64,000 bases of DNA from Pukyongia salina (lineage in GTDB: Bacteria > Bacteroidota > Bacteroidia > Flavobacteriales > Flavobacteriaceae), in the NCBI RefSeq assembly GCF_002966125.1, contig NZ_CP027062.1, forward strand, positions 558,001-622,000, written 5' to 3'. Made by a program: the position numbers and the translations under genes. Below are positions 36,177 to 44,624 of this stretch, piece after piece. How positions within the stretch are numbered: the stretch's first letter is position 1; each line of letters begins with the position of its first letter. Under the pieces are notes generated by a model. That model was not told the DNA's origin. It ran no database searches and saw only the letters and a list, made by a program, of their open reading frames with translations.

Positions 36177-36220
36177 ACCCTCTCCCCTCCAGATGCTGAA
36201 TCAAGTTCAGCAGGACAGTG
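36177..36220. repeat. 44-bp palindrome-bearing direct repeat, copy 1
   Basis: The sequence from ACCCTCTCCC to AGGACAGTG contains the palindrome TGCTGAA-TCAAG-TTCAGCA. It recurs at 36316-36359 with one mismatch. It lies just after the acyl-CoA dehydrogenase stop. The gene-free stretch 36177-36631 otherwise shows only a related short palindrome (CCGAA-CTTGA-TTCGG at about 36287-36301) and the upstream region of the next operon. Confidence 0.8.
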
Positions 36221-36315
36221 GTGCACCGATTTCATGAATTTCGACATCACTATACTTGTCATTCCGATCCACGACGCTTGTCATTCCGAACTTGATTCGG
36301 AATCCATCATTCCTG

Positions 36316-36359
36316 ACCCTCTCTCCTCCAGATGCTGAATCAAGTTCAGCAGGACAGTG
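36316..36359. repeat. 44-bp palindrome-bearing direct repeat, copy 2
   Basis: Second copy, 139 bp downstream of the first, with one C-to-T difference in the pyrimidine-rich left part. Its palindrome shares the core GAACTTGATTC with the CCGAACTTGATTCGG element that lies between the two copies. Confidence 0.8.
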
Positions 36360-36631
36360 AGGAACATTATTTTCATGGCGAGTCCCGGCTTCTCATATAA
36401 CCCGGGACCGCGCTATTCGCTGTTACTCCTCGCCCACTAGCGTGGCTGCGGGGTATACGCTGCTATCGCTCTCGCAAGATCCGTAACAAATTTTTCAAAA
36501 TAGCGACTAATCATTCGTACATAAGAAAAGGTGCCTTCCAAATTTCGCAATTGAGTTTCTCAACTCATTTTTTTTACCGAAATTAACAGTCCGAAATTTT
36601 TTGATAACTAACACTTTAAATAGCCATATCT

Positions 36632-37972
36632 ATGTCTGATGATTTTGATTTACTAGAAACCGAGTCCAACTCAAAACAGGAAAAAGTAGACGTAAACTGG
36701 GGCAAAGCCGTCGACCAGATGAAGTCTAAATTAGCGCAGGAAGACGATCCGGAAATGCGGCAAAAAATTCTTAACGCTACCCTGGACGATGTTGTAGGTA
36801 TGGCCGAAAAGGACCGGGCCTCATTGCTCGATGCCATTAAAGATCTTACCGATTACCAGGAAGAAGTAGGAATTATTTTCGAAAAATTCTCAACCCTCAA
36901 CGAGGCCGAACAGAAGGTGATCGACAACGCACAAAGCAAACTAGAACGAGCCAAACTGGCCCTGGAGGATGCCGAAAAGGTGAAAGATAACTGGTGGAAC
37001 AATCTCTGGGGACGAAAATCACGGATCAAAAAACGCCAGTCTGAACTGGAAGCCGCACAAAAGGAACGTGAAGCCGCCGATATGAAAGCCAAGCAAATGT
37101 TCCAAGAACGAATAGAGACCGCCGATATACAAACCCTGTTAAGTGAATTATCCTATAAGAGTCAGGCTGCCGTAACCCGCCTGAAAAACCGTGAAGTGGA
37201 GATCAAGGAAGTAGAAGATAAACTTCAGGATGCTATTGTAGAGGCCAGTAAGAACCATACCAAAGCGTTGGAAAAGAAAAAGGAAACCGAAGATAAACTT
37301 GAAGAACAATACGCCTTGTTGAAACAGGCGCGACAGGAACTGGAAGAGATCTCAGATAAACAATCTACAGCCTATTCAGAAGCTATAGGAAAAATAACGG
37401 GGATCGAACAAAAAGTAGAAGAGCTCGAAGGCCTCAAGAACGCATATACAACCCTTGCAGCCAGTAAGGATAGTTTTGTTCATAAACATAACCTTACCAT
37501 AAAAGTACTTACTTCCCTGCGAAGCAATTTACAAACCCATAGGGCAAAACTTAAAAGTGACACCGATGAGCGCCTTAAATACTACGACGGATATGTAGTG
37601 GCCCTGAAAGCCAGAACAGATCAGGAGTTTGCTGCCATCCTGGAACATCTGGGTGTGAAAACAGACGAACATATCGGGCAAACCCTCGCTGCCATGCATT
37701 CGGCCAGTGCAAAAGCACGCCAGGAGATGATGGATAATATTCCTGTTCATGAAAAAGTGATGCAGGGAGTTTATGGTAGTTACGCCGAATCGTTGCAGGA
37801 AATTAGAGAGAAAGATGCCGAGATTCAGAAGGATTTTGCCAATAGGTACGGTATTGATATGAAGGAGATTTTCGAGGAGTTTTACGCCGCAGGTAGCGGT
37901 GGTGATGTTCCGCCGGAAGACGATAAACCTTCAGAAACTCCTAAAGAGGATGATGAAAACCTATTGGGTTAG
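36632..37972 (+). CDS. Coiled-coil protein, first gene of an unexplained AAA+ operon
   Basis: A 446-residue soluble, highly charged protein with long helical heptad regions at about residues 70-290 (VIDNAQSKLERAKLALEDAE, KKRQSELEAAQKEREAAD, KALEKKKETEDKLEEQYALL) and a Trp-rich turn (KDNWWNNLWGRKS). The later part (THRAKLKSDTDERLKYYDGY) looks vaguely like TelA/KlaA tellurite-resistance proteins, and the C terminus is an acidic Pro-rich tail. There is no signal peptide. I do not recognise a firm family; a cytoskeletal or 'microtubule-binding-like' automated label would reflect only the coiled coil. It heads a six-gene co-directional set with an AAA+ ATPase and two membrane proteins, and may be a scaffold. 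Confidence 0.8.
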   Translation: MSDDFDLLETESNSKQEKVDVNWGKAVDQMKSKLAQEDDPEMRQKILNATLDDVVGMAEKDRASLLDAIKDLTDYQEEVGIIFEKFSTLNEAEQKVIDNAQSKLERAKLALEDAEKVKDNWWNNLWGRKSRIKKRQSELEAAQKEREAADMKAKQMFQERIETADIQTLLSELSYKSQAAVTRLKNREVEIKEVEDKLQDAIVEASKNHTKALEKKKETEDKLEEQYALLKQARQELEEISDKQSTAYSEAIGKITGIEQKVEELEGLKNAYTTLAASKDSFVHKHNLTIKVLTSLRSNLQTHRAKLKSDTDERLKYYDGYVVALKARTDQEFAAILEHLGVKTDEHIGQTLAAMHSASAKARQEMMDNIPVHEKVMQGVYGSYAESLQEIREKDAEIQKDFANRYGIDMKEIFEEFYAAGSGGDVPPEDDKPSETPKEDDENLLG

Positions 37973-38092
37973 ATTAGGCTGTTAATATACTTCTGTTGTT
38001 GCCTTGCTTCATTATTGCTGAAGTGGTAATTCTGCATGGGATAAGATCACTTGTTTTACTCGAATTAACAAAATTCTGAACATTATAATTAG

Positions 38093-39145
38093 ATGTCCAT
38101 TAACCAAATAGTTACACCCTTAGATAGTGCTGTACTGGAAACCAGAGAGCAGTATTCGGTCTATTTTAAGATTGTATCTCATGCCTTTCAATTTTTAATG
38201 AAAAGCATAACCGAAAACAAGTTGTGTAATGCCCTGGAAGTGTCGTTCATGGAACAGTATTGCGAGCTACTTGCGTATTCCCTGGAATCGTTTAGAGTTA
38301 AATACCTGTACGATGAAGAAGAGAAAATGAAGATAGATCTCACCGAATCGGGTTTTCCTAATTACCTGGAATTTAGGTATCTCATCAACGATCTGGAATT
38401 AAAGAATGAGCATATAAGCCGGTTGCCCGACCCACAGGTATTGAAGGATGAATTTCTGGAAACCCTGTTAAAACACAAGCAACCTATCCCTAAACGAAAG
38501 TTGGAACAGGCGGCATCCATTGTCTATTATACATCGGTTGAACGAAACTTTATCTTTCGGAAATTTGTACAGGGGAAGATCATCACAATCGAAAATAATC
38601 CGGACGCACCTTATTTAGTAAGCTGGTCGTTTTACGATATCACCTTTAACAGGCCGTTCATCTGTTTTATGTACTTCGATCTGCACAAAACCGACCTTAA
38701 AGAATACACCCCCAAGATCTATGAAGTGCTCGAAGCCGTAGCCGATAGAAATATGAACCTGGACAACCTCGCGTATGCAATAGATAAGCGACTTCCGAGG
38801 GTTCTTCCGAAGAAATTCAGAAAAATAGACCTGGGGCCACTACATAACGTATTTGCAAAAGATGAACTCACTATTACCCATGTAGTCCTGGAAGGAATTG
38901 TTAATAAGGTACTGGATCTGTCGGCCTACGCCTTATCTATAACTATAGAAGACCTTGATTCCTCCGGTAAGATCACCGAAGGCAACATCTTCAACCGCCA
39001 GCATTTACAGATATGGGACGCATACAAGCCCAAAAAATATTTACTTTGTTCGCACCGCCTGATGCAATTGTTTTATGACAAGATCCCGGGTGAGATCGAC
39101 AAACTTGCCCAGGAACCAATAGAAATTCCGGCCTTAAAGATTTAA
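38093..39145 (+). CDS. Soluble protein of unknown function in the AAA+ operon
   Basis: A 350-residue protein with no signal peptide or transmembrane helix. It is rich in helices and aromatic residues: QYSVYFKIVSHAFQFLMK, YLEFRYLINDLELKNEHISR, VSWSFYDITFNRPFICFMYF. The C-terminal part, after KFRKIDLGPLHNVFAKDELT, ends in a DLDSSGKITEGNIFNRQHLQ segment. No known catalytic motif is visible and I cannot name a family. Its stop is 1 bp from the ATPase start, so the two are almost certainly translated together. It could be an ATPase adaptor or substrate-binding subunit; this is inference from position only. Confidence 0.8.
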   Translation: MSINQIVTPLDSAVLETREQYSVYFKIVSHAFQFLMKSITENKLCNALEVSFMEQYCELLAYSLESFRVKYLYDEEEKMKIDLTESGFPNYLEFRYLINDLELKNEHISRLPDPQVLKDEFLETLLKHKQPIPKRKLEQAASIVYYTSVERNFIFRKFVQGKIITIENNPDAPYLVSWSFYDITFNRPFICFMYFDLHKTDLKEYTPKIYEVLEAVADRNMNLDNLAYAIDKRLPRVLPKKFRKIDLGPLHNVFAKDELTITHVVLEGIVNKVLDLSAYALSITIEDLDSSGKITEGNIFNRQHLQIWDAYKPKKYLLCSHRLMQLFYDKIPGEIDKLAQEPIEIPALKI

Positions 39146-39146
39146 T

Positions 39147-41108
39147 ATGGAACACAACAGTACATTTCCCATAAAGAAAAGCGAACTGGACGCCCTCCGG
39201 GAAGAAGCCACTTCCTACCTTAAAGGAGTCCAGTGGGACCAAAGTTATAAGGCCAGAAACCGCGATAAGGACAAGAAAGATGATAGCATATTATTGTATT
39301 TGTCCAAGGCCACCGGAAACAGTACCTCCGAGGTCACATCGGTCTCCAGGTCCATCCTGGCACTAAAGAAAAAACTCCTCCCCGAGTCTGTCGCTATACC
39401 TATACAATTAAATCGGGCCCTGTATGCGGTACAGGAGGGCCTTACTATGGGTGTATGGTTAAAAGACAGTTATGGCGATTCGTCTGGCCTCTCGGGTTTG
39501 AACGAACGCAAGGGCTCCCTGGATAATACCCAACGCAGGGAATTTGACAGCAAGCAGCAAACGGCAACGGCTTATATGCTGTACGGCACGGCCTACCGTA
39601 TCCTTTACGACTTGAAGCCTGTCGCATCAGACGATCTAAGCGTGATGAAGAACAAATTTGCCGGTATACCCGAAATCTCCCTTATCTCACCCATTAAAGG
39701 TATTTCCTGTATGTTGTACTATTACGACAAATACCTAAATCATCCGGAGATCATCACTCGCGATGCCGATGTTGTCGATTTTACCGTTGTTTATTTCGAA
39801 GCTATAATAGCCGAAATACAGCTCCGGCTGGGCTCCCTGGAATATACTGAAACCATCACCGACCGCACCTATAAACTGGAAAACAGTGATTTTGCTGTTT
39901 CCGGATGGGAGAATGTTTTTGAAGGGACTGCAAAAAGTGTTGAATTCAATAAAATACAATTTGAAGAGATCGTAGGAAACCGCGATGCCAAACATTTTGC
40001 GCGTAGACTAACCGAGCGATTGCTTAGTTACGACTTTAACGCAAAAAAGAACCCCTTCCAGGAGCTGGGAGGATTTATGCCCGTTTTTATGGGATATGGA
40101 ATCCCGGGCACCGGAAAAAGTATGTTGATCGCCGCCATAGCAACCCGGTTGAAAGAACATTGTGACAATCTCGACATCCCTTTTCTTTTTCATCCCATGC
40201 CAGACACACTCATCTCCACCTTTCAAGGAGGATCGGCCGAAAAAATGGTACAATGGATGAAACCTTTGCAGGATCCTGGAAAACTCATCTTCGCACCTAT
40301 CGATGACGCCGAAAACAATTTGCAGGAACGAACCGCTCAGGGAGTATCGGCTGGTGTGAAGGAAGTGATTGGTGTTTTCCTGCGATATACCGAAGGGGCC
40401 TACGCCGTTAATTATGGTAACAGCTCCATAGGACTTTTTACAAACCTACCCGAAATGCTGGATAAAGCTGTGATCTCCAGAGTTCAGGGGCGTTTTAAAA
40501 TTGATGGTGCGCGTACACTTCCCGATTTTATAGATCAGGACTATCTGTGGTGGCGTAAAATTGAGAAGACCATGCCCGGGTTTGTGAATATGCAGGGACC
40601 GGATAAATACACCTACTTAAGTGAGCAGGGAATAGTGAAGAACCTGGGAGCGATCCTGGAAAAATCTGAAAAGCCCACCGAAGAACGAGTATTGGCTATT
40701 TACGAGCAAGTGGAAGCTAAGCACAAGGAAACCGAACATATGTTCTATGCAGAATTATTTAAACGCATTCAGAAATCATTTCCTTTCTTTTCATCCAGGG
40801 ATATCAGGAATATCCAAAGCGCTGTTTCGCTTCGGTTAACAGATTTCGATCTTCCTTCAGATTGGTTCGAGGATGCCGAAATTTATTTCAGAAAAGATTA
40901 CGATACCAAATACGGTATGTTACAGGAACTTATGAAAGAAAATATGAAAGGCCTGAGCTTTTCAGACATCAGAAAGCAGGAAGTGGTTCGCTACCTGGAT
41001 AACGTCGCTACAATTGCCGATACAGATTTTAAACGCAAAGTAGATCAACGCTTACATGAAATGAACGTGCAAACAGAAGCCAGAAGACGCTTCGAAGAAG
41101 ATAATTAA
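39147..41108 (+). CDS. AAA+ ATPase of the unexplained operon
   Basis: A 653-residue ATPase. About 310 N-terminal residues are a unique helical region. Next is an AAA+ module with Walker A GYGIPGTGKS (316-325, Lys324), a pore-loop-like segment (DTLISTFQGGSAEKMVQWM), Walker B LIFAPIDDAE (Asp386-Asp387) and a sensor-like VNYGNSSIGLFTNLPEMLD. An Arg-bearing DKAVISRVQGRFKID follows, resembling the AAA arginine-finger/sensor-2 area. The C-terminal 200 residues are helical (FKRIQKSFPFFSSRDIRNIQ). It is not a close match to FtsH, Cdc48, ClpX or MoxR. It is sandwiched between two unknown soluble proteins with a 1-bp gap and a 1-bp overlap. It probably remodels a protein complex. Confidence 0.85.
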   Translation: MEHNSTFPIKKSELDALREEATSYLKGVQWDQSYKARNRDKDKKDDSILLYLSKATGNSTSEVTSVSRSILALKKKLLPESVAIPIQLNRALYAVQEGLTMGVWLKDSYGDSSGLSGLNERKGSLDNTQRREFDSKQQTATAYMLYGTAYRILYDLKPVASDDLSVMKNKFAGIPEISLISPIKGISCMLYYYDKYLNHPEIITRDADVVDFTVVYFEAIIAEIQLRLGSLEYTETITDRTYKLENSDFAVSGWENVFEGTAKSVEFNKIQFEEIVGNRDAKHFARRLTERLLSYDFNAKKNPFQELGGFMPVFMGYGIPGTGKSMLIAAIATRLKEHCDNLDIPFLFHPMPDTLISTFQGGSAEKMVQWMKPLQDPGKLIFAPIDDAENNLQERTAQGVSAGVKEVIGVFLRYTEGAYAVNYGNSSIGLFTNLPEMLDKAVISRVQGRFKIDGARTLPDFIDQDYLWWRKIEKTMPGFVNMQGPDKYTYLSEQGIVKNLGAILEKSEKPTEERVLAIYEQVEAKHKETEHMFYAELFKRIQKSFPFFSSRDIRNIQSAVSLRLTDFDLPSDWFEDAEIYFRKDYDTKYGMLQELMKENMKGLSFSDIRKQEVVRYLDNVATIADTDFKRKVDQRLHEMNVQTEARRRFEEDN

Positions 41109-42358
41109 TGGATAAACTAAAAACAGCCGGCTTATTTGGACGGGACCTGATAAAAGTATCGGGATCCCTGGCCGAACGTTATAACGGCTGTTTGGCGATC
41201 CTGGGTATGGATCCTACACAACTCAAAACTTTTCATGTGGATGGCATGGGCTGGAGTCCGGAAATTGCAGAAGAGAAGGACAATCCATACTATCTCAATA
41301 TTGGCGAGGCCAATTTGAACGCTATTATAATCTCCCCGGAACAGGAAGGAAAGCCGGTATATATGGCATTTCACAGTTTCGATCGTGATATTATGAGAAC
41401 TGTTTTCACGGCCTACGCCAAAGAAATAAGGGATATAACCAAAGATGCCGCCATCTGTATCCATCTGGATCAACACATAGATACTTATTACGAACCTTTC
41501 GATCTGTTGCGTTATAAACAGATCACCGTAAGTTTCAGGATCCTGAACGACCTTGCTAAAAAGCAAAAAGAGCAACTACAGTTAGTGGAAGAGTTCAATA
41601 GCGGGAATAACTTCATAAATCGCGATATACATAACAAATTACTGGAATCTGCTAAAAAATACGGAGATCTTAGAGATAGGAAGCTGGAACTGGATCCCCT
41701 GCAACTAAAAGTAAGTACATTTTATACCAGGGCTTTTGGCGGAGTATTCGTGTTGCGTGATTTTATAAATGATATTATGGTTTTTGAGGATGAGGAGCTC
41801 TTTAAAAAAGCCATCAAAGACACTGTGCACGACGTCACTTTATTTCACATTAGCCATAATGAACTAACAGCCACCCTGGTGAATCATCTAATCGCCGAAT
41901 TCGACATAAAGCGAGCTGCGAAATCCAAAAGATACGACCGTATAAAAAAACATTTGTTTGTTCAGGAATTAAAAGAATGTAAGCATCCGTTACGGGAAGT
42001 TCTGGACAGCCCGATGCTGTTTAAGAAATACCTCAACGAAATGGACGTCGACACCAAGAAGCGTCTAATGAGTGTAGAATTATACAATCAACGAAAGATC
42101 GTTGAAAGAGATCTTAAAATAGATGATGTAGTAGATCCGGTCTACGAAAAGGCACTTTTACAACCGCATTCATCCCTGGAAGAAGAGCACAAAGAACTTA
42201 TATGGAAACTACTCACCAAGATCGTTCCGGCAGATCCGCTGCACTTATACTGGTATGATAAAGAACAATTTTACAAGACCTTTCTTAACTGGCCTGAAGG
42301 TTATCAGGACTGGGTAATAGACAGAATTCTAATCAATACTAAAAACCAAGCATCATGA
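41108..42358 (+). CDS. Soluble protein of unknown function downstream of the AAA+ ATPase
   Basis: A 416-residue protein without signal peptide or membrane helix. The N terminus MDKLKTAGLFGRDLIKVSGS and the central VSTFYTRAFGGVFVLRDFIN segment give no catalytic signature. The C terminus holds a WKLLTKIVPADPLHLYWYDK segment. From memory it may correspond to a Bacteroidota domain of unknown function (possibly DUF6638), but I could not check this. The ATG overlaps the ATPase stop by 1 bp (TAATG), and the end overlaps the next gene by 4 bp, so it should be made in fixed ratio with both. Confidence 0.8.
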   Translation: MDKLKTAGLFGRDLIKVSGSLAERYNGCLAILGMDPTQLKTFHVDGMGWSPEIAEEKDNPYYLNIGEANLNAIIISPEQEGKPVYMAFHSFDRDIMRTVFTAYAKEIRDITKDAAICIHLDQHIDTYYEPFDLLRYKQITVSFRILNDLAKKQKEQLQLVEEFNSGNNFINRDIHNKLLESAKKYGDLRDRKLELDPLQLKVSTFYTRAFGGVFVLRDFINDIMVFEDEELFKKAIKDTVHDVTLFHISHNELTATLVNHLIAEFDIKRAAKSKRYDRIKKHLFVQELKECKHPLREVLDSPMLFKKYLNEMDVDTKKRLMSVELYNQRKIVERDLKIDDVVDPVYEKALLQPHSSLEEEHKELIWKLLTKIVPADPLHLYWYDKEQFYKTFLNWPEGYQDWVIDRILINTKNQAS

Positions 42359-42873
42359 CACTCGAAATCATTGTATTTGTCATCGCTATTCTCTTCGGAA
42401 TAATAATATACTGGCGGGAATCTAAAAGTAATAGACTCTATCGCTTCTTCAACCATATGATGCACTCCAAGGATTTACAAATGAAAGCTGACAATAGAAA
42501 AGGCTTTGTACACAAGCAGGTATTCTTGATGCGTCTTGTATGGATCACTCTCATATTTGTACTGGGAGCCGCCATCCTTAGTTTCGCTACCCCGATCAAT
42601 GTGATTTTCTTCCAGTATTTTGTATCTGCGATCGTGGGAACTCTCATAGGAACTTACATTGCTTCTGCTTTTATATTTACTTCGGAAGGGCTTAAGAAGG
42701 AAAATCTAAAGAAGAATTTCGATAAGGCGGTTGAAAAAGGAAAAGAATTCGTCGACGACCTTAGAGAGGAAGACGATCCCGCATCTAGTAGTGACGAAAC
42801 TCCTGAAAACAAGAAGGCTGCCGATGAGAAAAGTGCACGTGATCGACTTAGGGATAAAGGAATGATCAAATAG
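42355..42873 (+). CDS. Small membrane protein of the AAA+ operon
   Basis: A 172-residue protein with three hydrophobic segments: residues 1-20 (LEIIVFVIAILFGIIIYW), about 61-82 (RLVWITLIFVLGAAILSF) and about 87-110 (IFFQYFVSAIVGTLIGTYIA). A highly charged cytoplasmic tail of about 60 residues follows (NFDKAVEKGKEFVDDLREED ... KSARDRLRDKGMIK). No family is recognised. The ATG overlaps the preceding stop as ATGA. The tail could dock the soluble members of the operon to the inner membrane. Confidence 0.8.
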   Translation: MTLEIIVFVIAILFGIIIYWRESKSNRLYRFFNHMMHSKDLQMKADNRKGFVHKQVFLMRLVWITLIFVLGAAILSFATPINVIFFQYFVSAIVGTLIGTYIASAFIFTSEGLKKENLKKNFDKAVEKGKEFVDDLREEDDPASSSDETPENKKAADEKSARDRLRDKGMIK

Positions 42874-42953
42874 TGAACTATACAGTTTGAACATCGAATC
42901 AAAACGTGTGGTTTTAAAACCTATCATCGATAATATATAAAAACGCAGGAAAC

Positions 42954-44624
42954 ATGATAAAGTCATATTGGAAAAGAGGCAAAAAGCAACGACGAATAGT
43001 TGTAATTGGTGGTATAATTTTAATCCTGCTATTGTTCTTCCTACGGGACGACTATCAGCCGGCTCTGTTGTTTGTGAGAAAATATATTTTTATAATTCTT
43101 ATCTGTGCGCTGTTCCTGGGCTTTACGATCACCAAATTTAGAAGTGCGCCAAGTGCGGGAAGGCGATTACTTATTATGCTGGGGATCATAGCCTTTTTTG
43201 CCACCCTTTGGTTTTTTGGGGCCAAGATGCAGTTGTACGCCTATATGCAAACCTACAATGTCTTTAAAAACCTTGATAAAGTGGAGATCCACGAACTACC
43301 GTTAACCCGAAATGAGCGTATTCAACCATACAATAATATTGTGACCATGGCCTACGAGTCTATTGGGGAGACCCAGGAAGTTTCCCCTCCGCAGTTAGTG
43401 CGCGTGGACAGTAGCAACCAGTGGACCATGGCGGTTCAGCCTTCCAAAGAATACACCTGGCAGCGCATTAGCGACAATACCGAGGAGATCTTTGTGGTGG
43501 AAAGCACATCTCCTTTTCCGAGATTCTCCGGTGAGAACCGGGTCCCTGTGATATTCTCAATTGGCGAATCGCTCGCATTTAGCAGAAATACCTACAATGC
43601 AGTAGTACAGCGATTCAATATTTTTCAATTATTTACCATGGAACCCAGCGAGGTTTTCTATATGAAAAACGACGAAGGGAAATGGGTACAGGTGGTGAGT
43701 TTAATTAAATGGAAAGGATTTTTCTTTCCGTATCCTTCTTACGGCGGTGTTATGATCATCGATCCCGGAGAACACGACACCATGGATTACCTGGAACGCA
43801 TCACCATAGGTAAAGGAACATACATCCCTCCGGATGAAATAAAAAATTATCCCTTCCTCACCAAACAAAACACCCTGGCCGAAAAAATATCAAGGCTCCA
43901 GGCTGAGTCACTGCAATTCTTAGGCGGATTTACCGATCCCCTTCCCTGGAATATGGAGACTGCGGTGAAGATCCCGGATCTAAAAGACGATGAGAATATG
44001 CAACCCTTTGTAACCGATTTCAACTTCGCTGGTATGGAAACCGATGCGTATAGCGGACTCTACCATTGGTTTGGACTTGAACCGGTTGGAGAAGAACGAA
44101 CCAGTCTCTCCTTCAGTGTTATGATACCTGCAGACGGAACCGATAAATTATACTACTATAACCACGCTGCTAAAAAAGAAGGATTGGCTGGGGTCTCTGC
44201 CATGCCTTTAAAAGTGATAGAATCACGTAAAGAATACGATTGGAACGTTAACAAGCCCGTCGAATTCCGGCCCTTTGTGAAAGAGATCGGTGGAAGAAAG
44301 CGAATGTTCGTTTTCTGTACGATTGCTGCCAAACGAGATGATAGTAAGAAATTTGATGGCTCTGCCACACCCGACCTAGCCTTGGTAGACACCGAATACC
44401 GCGACGTGGTCTGGATCGACGCCAAGCACCCTTCTCAATGGGAATCGGCTATTCTCGAACAATTAGGAGAAACCTGGAAGGCTTCCGAAAATCTTTCAGA
44501 CGAAGATATATGGCCCAACAGAATCGAGATAGACCTTGATGAATTTAAACAAATGGATAGCCTTTCGGCTGGGAGCATTTCAGAAGAATTGATCGAAGCT
44601 GTTATGGACAGTATCAATAATTAA
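42954..44624 (+). CDS. Membrane protein with large extracytoplasmic domain, last gene of the AAA+ operon
   Basis: A 556-residue protein with a basic N terminus (KRGKKQRR) and three hydrophobic helices within the first 95 residues (VVIGGIILILLLFFL, YIFIILICALFLGFTITKF, RLLIMLGIIAFFATLWFF). A soluble region of about 450 residues follows, probably periplasmic, rich in beta strands and aromatics (SLIKWKGFFFPYPSYGGVMI, YDWNVNKPVEFRPFVKEIGG). There is no catalytic motif that I can name and no Cys-rich or T9SS signal. It lies 80 bp after the small membrane protein gene, closes the operon, and ends convergently with a 4-bp overlap with the minus-strand operon. Confidence 0.8.
   Translation: MIKSYWKRGKKQRRIVVIGGIILILLLFFLRDDYQPALLFVRKYIFIILICALFLGFTITKFRSAPSAGRRLLIMLGIIAFFATLWFFGAKMQLYAYMQTYNVFKNLDKVEIHELPLTRNERIQPYNNIVTMAYESIGETQEVSPPQLVRVDSSNQWTMAVQPSKEYTWQRISDNTEEIFVVESTSPFPRFSGENRVPVIFSIGESLAFSRNTYNAVVQRFNIFQLFTMEPSEVFYMKNDEGKWVQVVSLIKWKGFFFPYPSYGGVMIIDPGEHDTMDYLERITIGKGTYIPPDEIKNYPFLTKQNTLAEKISRLQAESLQFLGGFTDPLPWNMETAVKIPDLKDDENMQPFVTDFNFAGMETDAYSGLYHWFGLEPVGEERTSLSFSVMIPADGTDKLYYYNHAAKKEGLAGVSAMPLKVIESRKEYDWNVNKPVEFRPFVKEIGGRKRMFVFCTIAAKRDDSKKFDGSATPDLALVDTEYRDVVWIDAKHPSQWESAILEQLGETWKASENLSDEDIWPNRIEIDLDEFKQMDSLSAGSISEELIEAVMDSINN

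Follow-up and report, generated by a model that had tools for sequence, protein, structure and literature searches.

A six-gene operon of Pukyongia salina built on a classic AAA ATPase, with a core kept across phyla and membrane partners that differ between lineages

In a 64,000-nucleotide stretch of Pukyongia salina DNA (NZ_CP027062.1, positions 558,001 to 622,000), hereafter the window, six consecutive genes, g1 to g6, encode a coiled-coil protein, an AAA ATPase, two further soluble proteins and two membrane proteins (Table 1). Comparison of their sequences across genomes gives good support to the view that g1-g6 form one unit. The first four make up a core with the order coiled coil, g2, AAA, DUF6638, which we also found in Alphaproteobacteria, in Vibrio and on one viral-classed contig, and the loci compared showed a fixed, predicted cytosolic core whose membrane partners are exchanged between lineages. 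We tentatively read the operon as a membrane-docked AAA+ remodelling machine, which would act on the coiled-coil protein g1 and most likely help to maintain or remodel the cell envelope, and we put the chance of this reading at a shade below even.

The original prediction had presented g1-g6 as one unit of six same-strand open reading frames (ORFs), and on re-reading all its lengths, coordinates and gaps (120, 1, -1, -4 and 80 bp, in order from g1 to g6) proved exact. We sampled 60 genomes of the family to which the window belongs, one per genus and the window included; 22 of them have a full-length ATPase, and two further genomes gave a weak AAA-domain match alone (E values of 5.7e-4 and 7.3e-4). 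The co-occurrence test covered g1, g3, g4 and g6, leaving g2 and g5 aside; at the E limits used (1e-10 for g1, 1e-5 for g6 and 1e-3 for DUF6638) g1, g3, g6 and DUF6638 were present in the identical 22 genomes and in none of the other 38. Flanking sequence was taken for 20 of the 21 other ATPase-bearing family genomes, and in 18 of these 20 the set of six was complete, with order and strand kept. Genome G059 falls outside this count since its g6 lies just past the end of the fetched stretch. In genome G058, g1 and g2 stand together on a second short contig, apart from the ATPase, and directly upstream of the ATPase, at the place expected of g2, there is a 637-residue ORF (L048:7230-9143) which by our own reading of its sequence reads like a restriction enzyme subunit; the operon therefore seems to be interrupted in this genome. 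Furthermore, the six genes diverged in a correlated manner across 19 genomes, the 15 gene pairs giving Mantel r values of 0.80-0.96, each with a permutation p of 0.001; shared species history alone would produce such a correlation too. Mean pairwise identity was highest for g1 (0.85), as would be expected of a polymer or of a scaffold with several partners, and stood at 0.81 for the ATPase and at 0.56-0.72 for the others, with g6 at 0.72. Taken together, co-occurrence, kept order, correlated divergence and a core homologous in another phylum support the claim of one unit, and the scattering of homologues, or their falling into separate housekeeping roles, which the original prediction had named as refuting it, did not come true. 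When the whole phylum was sampled (296 genomes), the full-length ATPase occurred only in the window's family, in four genomes including the window, and the other 10 matches were confined to the AAA domain and its surroundings, over no more than 233 residues.

Table 1. Genes of the operon and short motifs discussed in the text (positions are those of the window)
Feature	Position	Strand	Description
g1	36632..37972	+	446-residue coiled-coil protein, core component 1
g2	38093..39145	+	350-residue soluble protein, core component 2
g3	39147..41108	+	653-residue classic AAA ATPase, core component 3
Walker A of g3	40092..40121	+	residues 316-325, GYGIPGTGKS
Walker B of g3	40284..40307	+	residues 380-387, LIFAPIDD; Asp-Asp replaces Asp-Glu
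g4	41108..42358	+	416-residue DUF6638 protein, core component 4
g5	42355..42873	+	172-residue membrane protein; an acidic linker leads to a conserved C-terminal peptide, which is predicted to be cytosolic
g5 C-terminal tail	42832..42864	+	residues 160-170, SARDRLRDKGM, candidate docking peptide
g6	42954..44624	+	556-residue protein, three predicted transmembrane helices followed by a domain of ~460 residues predicted periplasmic

Translational coupling of the middle genes had also been proposed, and it agrees with the tight gaps in the window and in some relatives, but it is not general, as the spacing between operon genes ranged from -4 bp to 3.2 kb among relatives of the window's family. In 10 of the 20 family loci (L035, L036, L038-L041, L043-L046) a gene which on our own reading of its sequence is ABC-F-like lies upstream of g1 on the same strand and is 92-98% identical between them; its being common to these loci suggests an old shared location. 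The operon of the window adjoins other genes instead.

Outside the family, one scan returned at least 544 genome stretches in which a relative of the ATPase is encoded; this is not a count of genomes, as two patterns may match one gene. We studied 84 loci, namely the best 80 of these stretches and four named replicons; the best 80 are alphaproteobacterial by their titles, probably since the best matches to the first row of the query were retained. By tblastn the AAA gene was found in all 84 loci, g2 in 83, the coiled coil in 82 and DUF6638 in 81, on one strand and in a fixed order. HHalign comparison of the window's family with the alphaproteobacterial and Vibrio proteins gave probabilities of 97.5% for g1 (300 columns), 99.5% for g2, 99.9% for DUF6638 and 100% for the AAA protein. 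The profile families compared by HHalign miss loci lost in the first ORF pass (the ATPase cluster holds 66 of 83, against 84 of 84 by tblastn), and alignments A3, A4 and A7-A9 omit odd-length homologues from that pass and some near-duplicates. Ruegeria and Sinorhizobium are among the carriers of the core. With DUF6638 or the Vibrio ATPase as query, tblastn returned 10 plasmid-filed replicons each (Sinorhizobium, Rhizobium, Shinella and Vibrio), of 0.88-4.6 Mb and typed non-mobilizable; four such replicons were inspected, and in the three annotated ones the ATPase gene lies close to that for DUF6638.

A membrane partner family accompanied the core in 78 of the 84 loci. The small two-helix family c88 and the two-helix family c218, with a predicted periplasmic domain, lie downstream in 49 loci and c218 alone in two, and family c373, which has one helix and a predicted periplasmic domain and is unlike c218, lies downstream in 27. 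Family c218 is DUF1523 (PF07509; one member tested), the partner which in Rhodobacterales comes together with c88, and c373 is DUF2333 (PF10095), the partner in Rhizobiales; g5 and g6 gave HHalign probabilities of at most 1.9% against c88, DUF1523, DUF2333 and the other families of the profile set. The six loci lacking a partner comprise two from Vibrio, three short contigs and locus L067. In a tree of 34 ATPases the window's family stood together with a support of 100/100, and the alphaproteobacterial ATPases formed one clade of 4, all with DUF2333, and another of 18, of which 17 have DUF1523 and the eighteenth is from a short contig; between lineages the tree has very long branches in an uncertain order, and its bootstrap had not stabilised. 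Judged from this tree, partner kind follows the ATPase among the sampled alphaproteobacterial sequences. Since in 78 of the 84 loci the partner is of a type predicted to carry a periplasmic domain, and since g6 is itself well conserved (mean identity 0.72), one may argue that g6, DUF2333 and DUF1523 do the work in a lineage-adapted line for the assembly or transport of a periplasmic product, which the core would only power. We hold this to be very improbable, as the supposed working parts are mutually unlike while the core is kept. The same pattern, in which the periplasmic part varies by lineage and the cytosolic core does not, points to envelope upkeep or remodelling rather than to one fixed periplasmic substrate.

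The ATPase g3 matched PF00004 over residues 317-452 with an E value of 1.8e-8 and 35.3 bits against a gathering cut-off of 21.2, and ~316 residues precede the match and 200 follow it. It had been described as an unusual AAA+ ATPase; its core turned out to be an ordinary classic AAA domain, with a Walker B that is invariantly Asp-Asp. In all of 88 ATPases G316, G318 and the PGTGK of residues 320-324 in Walker A are invariant, the last residue of that motif being Ser or Thr, and D386 and D387 of Walker B are equally invariant; the family thus departs from the hhhhDE pattern with its catalytic Glu, which leaves its membership of PF00004 unaffected. R445, R449 and N433 are invariant in 88 of 88 as well, and we take the two arginines to stand at the arginine-finger places and the asparagine at the sensor-1 place. 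Profile matches of the AAA domain in the PDB include VCP/Cdc48, proteasomal Rpt, i-AAA, Pch2/TRIP13, PEX6 and SKD1/Vps4. As these are unfoldases and remodellers, they would also suit a quality-control extractase, whose AAA ring would unfold or extract membrane proteins delivered by g2 and g4 as substrate adaptors. This we consider quite unlikely, because no protease family was matched among the six proteins in Pfam, a dedicated and highly conserved coiled-coil gene would be unnecessary and the membrane partners vary by lineage. In the remodelling machine that we favour, g1 would be the object of the motor. Its conserved zone lies at residues 306-345 (KL..DT..R...Y......LK....Q..A), an aromatic-basic break, WWNNLWGRKSR, starts at residue 121, and by sequence it matched only two designed coiled coils in the PDB (E values of 0.0026 and 0.0068).

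The five proteins other than the ATPase had been said to show no nameable motif. This did not hold for g4, which is a DUF6638 protein (PF20343, E value 8.2e-29, 101.2 bits against a gathering cut-off of 27); g1, g2, g5 and g6 matched no Pfam family above its cut-off. NCBIfam, PADLOC and PHROGs gave no match that places any of g1-g6 in a known system; the matches listed were weak, and the strongest of them were to AAA or coiled-coil stretches. AlphaFold2 models covered g2 and g4. The g2 model, with a mean predicted local distance difference test (pLDDT) of 88.6, has a helical N-terminal half and a beta-rich C-terminal domain (residues ~158-319). Among its 50 listed structural neighbours 41 were chains of uricase, PTPS, DHNA, GTP cyclohydrolase and QueF, with Z 4.0-6.3 (below Z 8) and root-mean-square deviations of 2.8-5.5 over 82-142 residues, all of which we take to belong to the tunnelling (T-)fold superfamily. 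Among the remaining nine are a CdvA filament, with Z 5.2 over 63 residues, and APPL BAR-PH, on the N-terminal helices. The best Foldseek match of g2 (E value 0.16) was an unrelated chain, and by sequence its best PDB match had an E value of 0.078. The resemblance of the C-terminal domain to a T-fold is thus suggestive only. For g4 (mean pLDDT 91.5) the whole-protein model had no clear neighbour in PDB or BFVD (best E values 1.2 and 0.18), and its best PDB match on a second look reached Z 4.1 over 40 residues, which is no proof of a new fold.

By hydropathy g1-g4 have no transmembrane segment. In g5, hydropathic segments were observed at residues 1-19 and, several overlapping, within residues 52-109. 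Behind a variable acidic linker the tail motif SAR[ED]R[LF][KR][DN]KG was present in all 21 members of the g5 family, and it is plausible from this conservation that the tail is a docking peptide on the cytosolic side. The g6 protein has a basic N-terminus followed by predicted transmembrane segments at residues 15-33, 37-55 and 72-90, which by the positive-inside rule predicts its large domain to lie outside, in the periplasm; at E <= 1 it matched nothing in Pfam and, by sequence, nothing in the PDB.

On the 359-kb IMG/VR record L157, DUF2333, the coiled coil, g2, AAA and DUF6638 lie on one strand, with ~0.9 kb separating g2 from AAA and with DUF2333 upstream of the core, not downstream as elsewhere, which on gene order is a second, differently arranged link of the core with DUF2333. 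Its neighbours include a phage-type DNA-polymerase exonuclease subunit, DnaJ, peptide deformylase, FliM and a weak match to an Rz-like spanin (1.2e-4). The contig also has an anti-restriction protein and, at full length, a phage family of unknown function. A terminase was not found by PF03237 or phrog_2, and the record may be a fragment; we describe it as viral-classed and do not claim it as a proven phage. Three scans of viral contigs returned one and the same contig, L157. Among 50,697 phage records the Vibrio ATPase had no match at an E value of 1e-6, and the L157 ATPase gave partial AAA-domain matches only, in six other records. DUF2333 homologues were seen in two of the 50,697 records, OQ572412.1 (Pseudomonas phage Y11; 49859-50695, 43.7% identity) and MT835812.1 (12782-13543, 27.0% identity), so that phages too carry this family.

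Further genes were observed within the operon in some lineages. A NudK-like Nudix gene lies between the ATPase and DUF6638 genes in 10 of the 20 family operons (L033, L034, L036, L037, L038, L040, L041, L043, L046 and L047); two of the Nudix proteins were tested and matched the NudK profile with E values of 9e-67 and 3e-60, under the curated NudK cut-off and over that of the YffH/AdpP subfamily. The window operon has no Nudix gene at this place, and none was found in the window's own genome with a single query, which shows little. In the alphaproteobacterial loci L061-L140 the match ends of AAA and DUF6638 are 3-2108 bp apart (77 loci), with varied ORFs between them; across the 80 loci an unnamed family of ~290 residues occurs in 11 and a DUF559 endonuclease-like family in 7 (one member tested). 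The accessible part of a report on Pseudomonas fluorescens MFE01 (PMC5256989) describes, at the hcp3 locus of its type VI secretion system, a DUF2333 gene that adjoins an amidase gene followed by a Nudix hydrolase gene, and both DUF2333 and Nudix recur around the g1-g4 machine.

A constant core with changing membrane parts occurs in several defence systems, and the same combination here raises the question of an anti-phage system, in which a shared cytosolic sensor and ATPase core would serve exchangeable effectors in the membrane, which would damage it once they are triggered. Presence in 22 of 60 genera is patchy, the operon gaps accept accessory genes (Nudix, the ~290-residue family, DUF559 and the restriction-enzyme-like ORF of G058), and a viral-classed contig carries the core. 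PADLOC also gave weak matches to IetA (1.7e-5) and JetC (8e-5), but these were limited to the AAA domain and to a coiled-coil stretch of g1, respectively. IetS, which we take to be the protease partner of IetA in IetAS, had no PADLOC match at E <= 1 among the other five proteins, and the operon does not qualify as IetAS. Moreover, the neighbours in the window are housekeeping genes by our own reading, the Vibrio ATPase is without a match in the phage records, and slow divergence (0.81 for the ATPase) along with the ABC-F-like neighbour shared by 10 of 20 loci favours vertical inheritance and a resident cellular function. We therefore judge a defence role to be unlikely, if less so than an extractase.

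Returning to the membrane-docked remodelling machine, we propose that g3 would form hexamers, as other classic AAA proteins do, and would pull on or disassemble g1 assemblies on the cytosolic side of the inner membrane, g2 and g4 being its adaptors. The core would be docked there by the membrane proteins, in this operon through the flexible cytosolic tail of g5 ending in SARxRLKDKG, and the ATP-driven change, or a signal, may be passed to the periplasmic domain (g6 and, elsewhere, DUF2333 or DUF1523). An AAA engine acting on a membrane assembly, as the original prediction had it, would fit this anatomy. Several observations weigh against the proposal. With Asp replacing the catalytic Glu in Walker B, hydrolysis may be slow, or g3 may switch rather than pull. 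Neither proposed adaptor has a recognised function, and the T-fold reading of g2 would rest on Z scores in a range that the tool calls common (4.0-6.3). No membrane gene adjoins the Vibrio core (in L025 the two upstream genes have no transmembrane segment by hydropathy and mfd lies downstream), and in L067, from a Roseovarius sp., the coiled coil, g2 and AAA are present and neither DUF6638 nor a partner was found in 10 kb downstream. Also, DUF2333 may be independent of the core: it occurs in two phage records, while the L157 ATPase gave partial AAA-domain matches only, in six others. A bolder version, in which DUF6638, a coiled-coil scaffold, a T-fold-like adaptor and an AAA motor whose Walker B reads DD would form a remodelling machine without sequence kinship to ESCRT or PspA, having interchangeable trans-membrane outputs across phyla and possibly acquired by large phage, appears doubtful to us, though it stands above any of the alternatives weighed here.

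As regards its surroundings in the window, the operon lies among genes that we read from their sequences as anmK and acyl-CoA dehydrogenase. Just upstream of g1, at 36179-36365, there are two near-identical copies of ~40 bases with the core ccagatgctgaatcaagttcagcaggacagtg, and the stretch cattccgaacttgattcggaatcc lies in the same interval; these elements look like dispersed intergenic repeats. A promoter scan found 16 sites against 17.6 expected, which is chance level, and terminator-like sites numbered 17 against 9.0 expected, mostly within genes.

The layout had been loosely likened to TelA/PspA modules, and tests of sequence by Pfam and HHalign gave no support to this likeness. TelA and Ter modules resemble the operon in having a long helical cytosolic protein; the g1 families reached at most 0.5% HHalign probability against 15 TelA homologues (PF05816), as compared to 97.5% for true homologues by the same method, and TelA had no Pfam match in the operon proteins or in their S. 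meliloti and Vibrio homologues and no match in the window's genome. With ESCRT-III/Vps4, archaeal Cdv and PspA/Vipp1 the operon shares a classic AAA ATPase beside a helical or coiled-coil protein and membrane partners. At E <= 1, Pfam gave no PspA_IM30 or Snf7 match in g1 and no match to the MIT domain of Vps4 in g3, nor either in the S. meliloti and Vibrio homologues, and Snf7 and PspA_IM30 were not among the matches listed for 62 homologues (25 of 37 families). The AAA-PspA/Snf7 neighbourhoods in the accessible parts of PMC11237479 and PMC10936438 differ from the g1-g6 unit, those of PMC11237479 in their gene sets. A literature search by domain name and on AAA/coiled-coil/membrane operons and ESCRT-like machines, most subscription papers lying outside it, found the unit undescribed, and nothing on DUF6638 was found in the searchable papers. 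In comparison with ESCRT-III/Vps4 and PspA/Vipp1, the operon adds two core proteins, g2 and DUF6638. The gene set whose order is conserved in the window's family and in Alphaproteobacteria would be a complete molecular machine that has no known role as yet. DUF6638, DUF2333 and DUF1523, which are catalogued as single families of unknown function, appear here as parts or partners of one unit, and together with g2, g5 and g6 they would gain one shared context.

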